Source: an uncultured Roseiflexus sp.
Lineage (GTDB): Bacteria > Chloroflexota > Chloroflexia > Chloroflexales > Roseiflexaceae
DNA length: 32,049 nucleotides
NCBI GenBank assembly: GCA_937935075.1
Contig: CALGYB010000005.1
Span: 1-32,049 of the forward strand
Reading direction: 5' to 3'
The notes beneath the pieces are model-generated. The model made no database searches. It was not told the DNA's origin and saw nothing but the letters and a program-made list of their open reading frames with translations. Shown here piece after piece: positions 3,361 through 4,890 of the stretch (position 1 is the first letter of the stretch; every line of letters begins with the position of its first letter). Position numbers and translations under genes: made by a program.

Positions 3361-3639
3361 ATGCAAAAGACCGACTTCATTAAGGCAGTCGCCGAACGAG
3401 CGAACCGGTCGCAGAAGGAGACGAAGGAAATCGTCGATGCGGCGCTGGAAGTCATCACCGAGGCGTTGAAGCGCGGTGAGAAAGTCACCCTGACCGGCTT
3501 CGGCACATTCGAAGTGCGGCAGCGCCAGGCGCGCGATGGGGTGAATCCACAGACGCGATCGAAGATCCACATTCCGGCGACCCGCACCCCTGGCTTCAGC
3601 GCCAGCAGTACGCTGAAGAACGCCGTCAAGGAAGGCTGA
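3361..3639 (+). CDS. hup: HU-family nucleoid DNA-binding protein
   Basis: A 92-residue protein of the usual HU length. It starts MQKTDFIKAVAERA and has the helical dimerisation region (1-40), the strand motif VTLTGFGTFEV (~44-54), and the DNA-binding arm RDGVNPQTRSKIHIPAT with the intercalating Pro (~60-75). It ends in the standard C-terminal helix. HU bends and compacts DNA as a dimer and helps repair, recombination and replication. The gene stands alone between its own promoter and a strong hairpin terminator. An AAGGA-like sequence lies ~12 nt upstream of the ATG. Confidence 0.96.
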   Translation: MQKTDFIKAVAERANRSQKETKEIVDAALEVITEALKRGEKVTLTGFGTFEVRQRQARDGVNPQTRSKIHIPATRTPGFSASSTLKNAVKEG

Positions 3640-3670
3640 GGTTTGGTTCCAATACTTCGATGACCTCATT

Positions 3671-3705
3671 GCTCGCCAGCGCTGATCTCGCTGGCGAGCG
3701 TTTAT
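3671..3705 (+). terminator. Intrinsic terminator after HU
   Basis: A perfect 11-bp stem (3671-3681 with 3689-3699) closes a 7-nt loop and is followed by GTTTAT. It starts 31 nt after the HU stop codon. Confidence 0.85.
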
Positions 3706-4028
3706 CATGACCGCGTCGCGGGCGTTCTCCAGGGGATACGCTATGCAACCAGGGAAGCGTTTTTGGGTGTATACTGACCGCACATCCGTTTCATGCCCGG
3801 GATATAGTGTGTAAGACTGATGCGCGGTCATTTGTACCATACTGCCGGGGCGCGCAGCGGGACGTCGGGGCGCTGCGGGCTGAAGCCCTCGCTGAGAACG
3901 CGGTTCGACCATGCTCACCGCAAGTGAAAGCCCCGCCGGGGCTGCTGATGCCAAGCGCAGTCATGCGTCCACGACTGCCAACGCGCGTTGTGGATCGGTA
4001 CGCTTTGCGAACCGGGCACTCGAACATC
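3706..4028. other. Gene-free gap with GC-rich dyads
   Basis: I see no credible gene in this ~320-nt stretch. It holds two compact palindromes, GGGCT-ga-AGCCC (3877-3888) and AGCCCC-gcc-GGGGCT (3929-3943), separated by ~40 nt. The arrangement looks like a dispersed intergenic repeat of the kind common in Chloroflexota. Open frames here have no start context and poor codon character. Confidence 0.5.
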
Positions 4029-4057
4029 TTGTCTGACTGACTGCAAGTTAGTATAAG
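4029..4057 (+). promoter_or_regulatory. Promoter-like pair just upstream of the solitary CRISPR-type repeat
   Basis: TTGTCT (4029-4034), a 17-bp spacer and TATAAG (4052-4057). Predicted initiation at ~4063-4066 falls 5-8 nt before the 36-nt repeat at 4071. Transcription would read the repeat in the sense that puts ATTGAAAC at its 3' end, as expected for a crRNA precursor. Confidence 0.5.
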
Positions 4058-4070
4058 ACTGCTTATGGCG

Positions 4071-4106
4071 GTGAGAAAAACCCAAATCCTGCCAGGGGAT
4101 TGAAAC
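4071..4106 (+). CRISPR. Solitary CRISPR-type repeat (one unit, no array)
   Basis: A 36-nt segment begins GTGAGAAAAACCC and ends CCAGGGGATTGAAAC. The length, the 3' GATTGAAAC ending and the internal CCTG-c-CAGG dyad are typical of type I/III CRISPR repeats, where ATTGAAAC becomes the crRNA 5' tag. I found no second copy on either strand of this window, and no cas gene is present. It could be an orphan or decayed array, a relic left by spacer loss, or a cargo-type mini-array. A chance match is possible but the combination of features makes it unlikely. Confidence 0.55.
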
Positions 4107-4108
4107 CT

Positions 4109-4258
4109 ATGGCGACACAGCTTTCGCTCAATCTCGATGATATTCTTGTACTACGAAATAAACGGGTCGGTAGTAGTATTATCAATTCTTCGGTTCGTAA
4201 TGGTGGATCTGATCAAATTTCACTCTATGAAGCGGCTGTTATTCTCAGAAAAGTCTAG
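4109..4258 (+). CDS. Small AT-rich ORF between the repeat and the endonuclease
   Basis: A 49-codon ORF starts at an ATG only 2 nt after the CRISPR-type repeat and ends 20 nt before the endonuclease start. It begins MATQLSLNLDDILVLRNKR and ends YEAAVILRKV. No family is recognised. Base composition is clearly more AT-rich than the neighbourhood, like the endonuclease gene. It has no Shine-Dalgarno sequence; the DNA where one would sit is the CRISPR-type repeat itself. It may be a real small gene of an acquired restriction locus, a remnant, or chance. Confidence 0.3.
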   Translation: MATQLSLNLDDILVLRNKRVGSSIINSSVRNGGSDQISLYEAAVILRKV

Positions 4259-4278
4259 ATTGACTATTTTTGAAATCA

Positions 4279-4755
4279 ATGAAGCCGTTCAACCCTTTGG
4301 ATAAGCAGAACCTGGGAATAAGCGTGGTACGGGCGTTGCTCTCACAAACGCTCCATCCTCTGCCACCCTCGCAGAAATTCAAAGGTGCTGGGGTATATGC
4401 TATATACTATGCCGGAGCGCATGAGTTGTATCGGTCTCTGAACATACAAAGTGATGATGATACGGAGAAAAGCCCTATCTATGTAGGAAAGGCTGTTCCT
4501 GCAGGCGCAAGAATGGGTATATTAGGTGAGACATTGCTCATTGAGCAGTTTCGCCCGATATGGAATGTGCTTGTGCCTGGTTTTGGAAATCACGATCCTG
4601 GCAAGGGAAGGTACAACCAGCAACGCTCTGCGTGGGACACGCTGCATCCCGGTCGGCAATGGGCGGCAAAGCTTAAGGACTATCCGAAAACGCGCGATCA
4701 AATCGCTGAGGAGGTGCGCCAGGCGCTCACGATTGGTGGAAACTTGCGTCCCTGA
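4279..4755 (+). pseudogene. Eco29kI-type GIY-YIG restriction endonuclease, apparently internally deleted
   Basis: This 158-residue protein matches the Eco29kI type II restriction endonuclease family, which is normally ~210 residues. The N-terminal FNPLDKQNLG, GAGVYAIYYAG (GVY at 38-40) and PIYVGKAVPAGAR (YVG at 68-70) are followed at ~80 directly by LGETLLIEQFRPIWN and GFGNHDPGKGR...SAWDTLHPGR. In family members as I recall them, ~50 residues lie between GAR and LGE, carrying an R-x3-H helix that is part of the active site (R104 and H108 in Eco29kI). Here that segment is missing in frame, while the later Glu (84) and Asn (96) remain. Cleavage is therefore probably lost. No methyltransferase flanks it, which fits an inactive enzyme. 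The start is the ATG at 4279; a TTG nine bases upstream is the alternative. The low GC suggests transfer. Confidence 0.75.
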
Positions 4756-4890
4756 ATTCGCTGCTCGTGACGTTCAACTAACAGCAACGTTGCAGCGCAT
4801 GGTCGCTGCCGGAAACATCCGACCCGCAACGTTATCACCCTGTCCAGCTGCAACTGCCCTCGCCCTGCCCCTCGTGTCTGAAACTCTGCC

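Follow-up and report, generated by a model that had tools for sequence, protein, structure and literature searches.

A solitary type III-A CRISPR repeat at the start of a decayed methyltransferase gene in Roseiflexus is most likely a stray leftover and not a working mini-CRISPR

How did a single CRISPR-type repeat come to lie at the very start of a methyltransferase gene, and does it have any function there? The repeat is found in a 32,049-nt stretch of the genome of an uncultured Roseiflexus sp. (hereafter the window). An earlier note, made from the sequence alone, had read it as a decayed array or an orphan mini-CRISPR, with a promoter-like leader of its own on the left and a spacer or guide on the right. 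On the basis of comparison with related genomes, we consider that it most likely strayed from a type III-A system that is still present in relatives, as a leftover rather than a working mini-CRISPR. The features of the locus are as follows.

3361-3639, + strand: gene for an HU-like DNA-binding protein (name based on the sequence), the left neighbour of the restriction-modification (R-M) slot, conserved in five genomes of the same genus
3816-4058, + strand: one copy of a dispersed, MITE-like 243-bp element, whose 3' end supplies TTGTCT-N17-TATAAG
4064-4070, + strand: left copy of the direct repeat TATGGCG, abutting the CRISPR repeat; its ATGGCG can be aligned with the native methyltransferase start in the relative G013
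4071-4106, + strand: solitary CRISPR repeat of 36 nt, related to the 37-nt type III-A repeat in the genome G012
4108-4114, + strand: right copy of TATGGCG, one base past the CRISPR repeat; it contains the ATG (4109) with which the methyltransferase remnant starts
4109-4258, + strand: remnant (49 aa) of an Eco29kI-type DNA methyltransferase, in which MATQLSLN runs in frame into the C-terminus LDDILVLRNKRVG...ILRKV
4270-4755, + strand: Eco29kI-family restriction endonuclease (Pfam PF09517, E 1.8e-42); the intact copy in G013 is at L021:6958-7572

The 36-mer at 4071-4106 is GTGAGAAAAACCCAAATCCTGCCAGGGGATTGAAAC. Reading from the left, TTGTCT (4029-4034) is followed after 17 nt by TATAAG (4052-4057) and, after a further 13 nt (4058-4070), by the repeat, so that all sequence elements named in the earlier note lie where it had placed them. 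A repeat search around 4071-4106 agreed with it that no second copy is nearby, and no second repeat separated by a spacer, as in an array or a mini-CRISPR, was present at this site. The genome is a draft of 4.85 Mb in 220 contigs (99.95% complete), and a search with the 15-nt 3' part of the repeat, allowing up to two mismatches, revealed no other evident copy in it, the nine other 15-mer matches being weaker. The exact 36-mer was absent from a set of 84,980 genomes, which possibly does not include the genome studied here. Collections of phages, plasmids and viral contigs gave no match either, and a tRNA was the sole match in the Rfam search.

We then used 330 nt around the repeat to search 25 other genomes. 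In the same genus, contig C81 of G012 matched the repeat, and none of its flanks, several times at intervals of about 75 nt, with E-values of about 1e-8 to 1e-9 over 37-38 nt. These matches belong to an array with the 37-nt repeat GTGAGAAAAACCCAAATCCCCGCCAGGGGATTGAAAC, which comes after genes matching csm4, csm5, a csm6-like CARF protein, cas6, cas1 and cas2; the first gene of the operon, a 756-aa frame, we take to be a putative cas10/csm1 by its position and length. The window repeat differs from the G012 repeat by the lack of one base and by one substitution, and both end in GATTGAAAC. Given this alignment with a genuine array in the same genus, the 36-mer is not a chance look-alike and, judged by its sequence, is a true, slightly degenerate type III-A repeat. 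The earlier assignment to type I/III was borne out, and the absence of a similar repeat from the arrays of close relatives, which would have spoken against the earlier note, was not observed; the repeat of G012 also occurs in G013, at the end of one contig, and a second contig of G013 carries a variant array. Outside the genus, genomes of the same family contained only distant look-alikes, such as the GCGAGGGGATTGAAAC arrays in G014. It should be noted that on contig C75 of G013 (L020 1-420) the 5' end (about 48 codons) of the first cas-operon gene directly abuts the CRISPR repeat at the contig end, which suggests either deletion of the cas operon down to the array or an assembly break. The array repeats on contig C289 of the same genome (L134 55-160) terminate in GGGGATTACGAC and not in GGGGATTGAAAC.

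In contrast with the G012 array, the window repeat is solitary, has no leader, spacers or recognized adjacent cas genes, and its stem is weakened. The CCTG-c-CAGG dyad to which the earlier note had pointed would leave a loop of only 1 nt and so cannot be a hairpin. Folding predicts the stem AAUCCCC-GCCA-GGGGAUU instead, at -11.6 kcal/mol in the G012 repeat. The window repeat has lost one base and carries a substitution in the stem, neither of them compensated, and its predicted fold reaches only -5.8 kcal/mol (z -0.45, not better than shuffled sequences).

The left flank turned out to have a different origin from that of a CRISPR array. The 243-bp element has about 40 matches in its own genome, and the part of it within the 330-nt query matched nothing in the 25 other genomes; the element has perhaps undergone a recent species-specific expansion. 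Its ends, read by eye, resemble inverted repeats (ATACTNATGCGCGGTCA / TGACCGCAAGTTAGTAT). TTGTCT was present in 22 of 30 copies examined, whereas TATAAG occurred only in the window copy, the others having TATGAG, TATCAG or TATTAG, and a consensus promoter scan of the + strand did not list TTGTCT-N17-TATAAG as a site. Because this pair is the end of an unrelated dispersed element, it is not, as had been supposed, a CRISPR leader, and nothing upstream of the repeat is like the leader of the G012 array.

On the right, the bases after 4106, which had been proposed as a spacer or guide, match the methyltransferase start of G013 (MATQLSLN...) and are therefore native gene. No foreign spacer follows the repeat, and the next 40 nt had no match within the window beyond short chance words. 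The methyltransferase of G013 (464 aa; L021:5543-6937) starts with MATQLSLNFDVPG..., sharing MATQLSLN with the 49-aa frame of the window, which then continues as its C-terminus; about 1.2-1.3 kb of the gene is gone. The DNA, which reads ATGGCGACACAGCTTTCGCTCAAT in the window vs ATGGCGACTCAGCTTTCGCTCAAT in G013, agrees with this. A comparison of the two translations showed that the window endonuclease lacks about 43 internal aa. Thus, the locus belongs to the Eco29kI-type R-M systems as a remnant only, with PF09517 in the window and PF01555, for the N6/N4 methyltransferase, in the intact G013 copy. In G013 the intact pair has the same neighbours, an HU gene and a TRAP-transporter gene, and the slot has decayed differently in G009, G010 and the window and is empty in G012. 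The slot between these two genes spans 3640-4890 in the window and was also located in L021, L091, L092 and L090. In Chloroflexus, the gene for a methyltransferase homologue (58% identity) starts without any such repeat. As a general caution, the promoter-like pair and the apparent spacer beside this lone repeat both dissolved once relatives were compared.

These flanks bear directly on the idea that this site once held a complete type III-A array, possibly along with cas genes, which recombination reduced to a single repeat. Spacers are readily deleted by recombination between repeats (PMC9458426), and the G013 contig on which the first cas-operon gene abuts a repeat indicates that this system may break at its array. 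However, no leader, trailer, spacer or cas fragment lies beside the window repeat, which is bordered by a native gene on the right and by the dispersed element, with native sequence upstream of it, on the left. The earlier view of a decayed array or orphan mini-CRISPR was correct in recognizing a genuine lone repeat of this kind, but nothing of a collapsed array is left around it, and we regard a collapse in place as unlikely. An array spacer derived from the methyltransferase gene could also have recombined with that gene and brought the adjacent repeat along, which would account for a repeat joined almost exactly at the gene start. This would require a spacer that has not been seen and a coincidental TATGGCG on the left, and none of the four readable G012 spacers matches the window locus; such an origin appears highly improbable.

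At the position of the junction, G013 reads ...gtaATGGCGACTCAGCTTTCGCTCAAT, with one ATGGCG and no repeat. When the dispersed element is removed, the left flank of the window (4058-4070) aligns by eye with G013 up to ATGGCG, although the aligner put the gap elsewhere. The occurrence of TATGGCG on both sides is suggestive of the insertion of one repeat unit at the methyltransferase start, with 7-8 bp duplicated. A shared word of at least 7 nt so placed was found at 0.2% of random 36-bp positions; because TATGGCG was noticed post hoc, an insertion with target duplication is held likely but unproven. The reading concerns one site, and no second example was found.

We therefore favour, with reasonable confidence, a captured type III-A repeat with a duplicated target of about 7-8 bp in an R-M locus that has since decayed, the repeat now being an unselected relic. 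A single array repeat, from the same lineage or from a donor, would have been copied or captured into the methyltransferase start, and the capture at the Eco29kI-type locus would have duplicated about 7-8 bp of its target, (T/C)TATGGCG. The repeat most likely arrived as a short fragment that was captured at a double-strand break. The R-M locus would then have decayed through in-frame deletions in both genes and the insertion of the dispersed element upstream, leaving a repeat that is probably no longer under selection. There is a smaller chance, which we consider doubtful, that one 36-37 bp repeat unit moved as a discrete segment and duplicated 7-8 bp of its target. This could have occurred, for example, when an integrase of a lost type III-A system inserted a repeat-derived fragment off target, or by capture at a staggered break; if so, genomes could acquire ectopic repeats by this route. 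When Cas1-Cas2 integrates a spacer off target, a stretch of about the length of a repeat is duplicated. Because the putative duplication here is only 7-8 bp, ordinary integration of this type is unlikely as the origin of the repeat.

Solitary repeats are already known from viral SRUs, some of which are RNA anti-CRISPRs or Racr (PMC10651486; reviewed in PMC8616872), and another kind is represented by the CreA repeats of CreTA modules (PMC9458426, PMC8501985). Similar to the viral SRUs and Racr, the window repeat is a single CRISPR-like unit that lies apart from cas genes and has promoter-like sequence upstream. However, it occupies a chromosomal slot that is syntenic across the genus and not a phage, prophage or other mobile element, no viral, phage or plasmid match was found, and no type III-A system of its own was found that it could inhibit. 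CreA is likewise a degenerate repeat outside an array and beside a potentially toxic gene. CreA usually has a pair of degenerate repeats that enclose a spacer-like segment, with an adjacent target. By comparison, the window contains no second degenerate repeat and no guide match beyond chance words, and no linked cas locus was recognized on reading its ORFs. The window repeat thus fails tested hallmarks of both groups. In the part of the literature covered, we found no published insertion of a single repeat with target duplication. If the insertion reading is true, the locus provides an example of how ectopic repeats, from which CreA-like RNAs and RNA anti-CRISPRs are made, arrive next to unrelated genes. 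For the present it is one isolated and probably inert relic, whose residual interest lies in how exactly one repeat got moved.

The earlier note spoke of no cas genes, and none was recognized in the window on reading the ORFs; the genome as a whole does have them, since other contigs carry type III-D-like, partial Cmr-like and Cas6 genes. The type III-D-like module comprises Cas10, Csx10, Csm2 and a Csx7-like gene plus a Cas6; Cmr-like and Cas10-like fragments and, by reading, a Cmr1-like fragment at a contig end were also identified. On contig C16, a Cas6 with an open frame lies behind a helicase-like sequence (Cas3-like by reading). When the cas loci examined in this genome were compared with the type III-A genes of G012, one Csm3-like match, in the III-D module, was all that was obtained. 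No cas1 was found, and the sole array with GATTGAAAC-ended repeats found in this genome is short, a remnant whose repeat is not the one in the window. The type III-A locus itself appears to be absent, judging from family and pattern searches of the 220-contig draft.

A functional repeat would be transcribed from upstream and yield an RNA that either resembles a crRNA or binds Cas proteins; this RNA would regulate the R-M genes or sequester the Cas proteins. Its position at the methyltransferase start, where it could supply a Shine-Dalgarno-like AGGGG, and the presence of other cas genes, including a Cas6, would agree with such a role. On the other hand, the candidate promoter is a variant of the dispersed-element end, the hairpin is weakened, neither a second repeat nor a guide-like match in the next 40 nt is present, and no Cas6 close to that of the G012 type III-A system was found, the C16 protein showing no clear similarity to it. 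A regulatory role is unlikely because the R-M genes are already broken by large deletions, and overall we consider a functional ectopic repeat quite improbable. A transcript of the repeat may nevertheless be processed, since the genome keeps type III genes and an open-frame Cas6, and this may count against a wholly inert relic. The cas6 of the type III-D-like module (contig C130 of this genome, L149 8294-9405) appears to have its halves in two reading frames, owing to a frameshift or an assembly error. In the G012 array (C81, L013 1850-2600), a palindrome, GTAAGGGCGGGTCTCAGACCCGCCC, occurs three times directly after degenerate trailing repeats.
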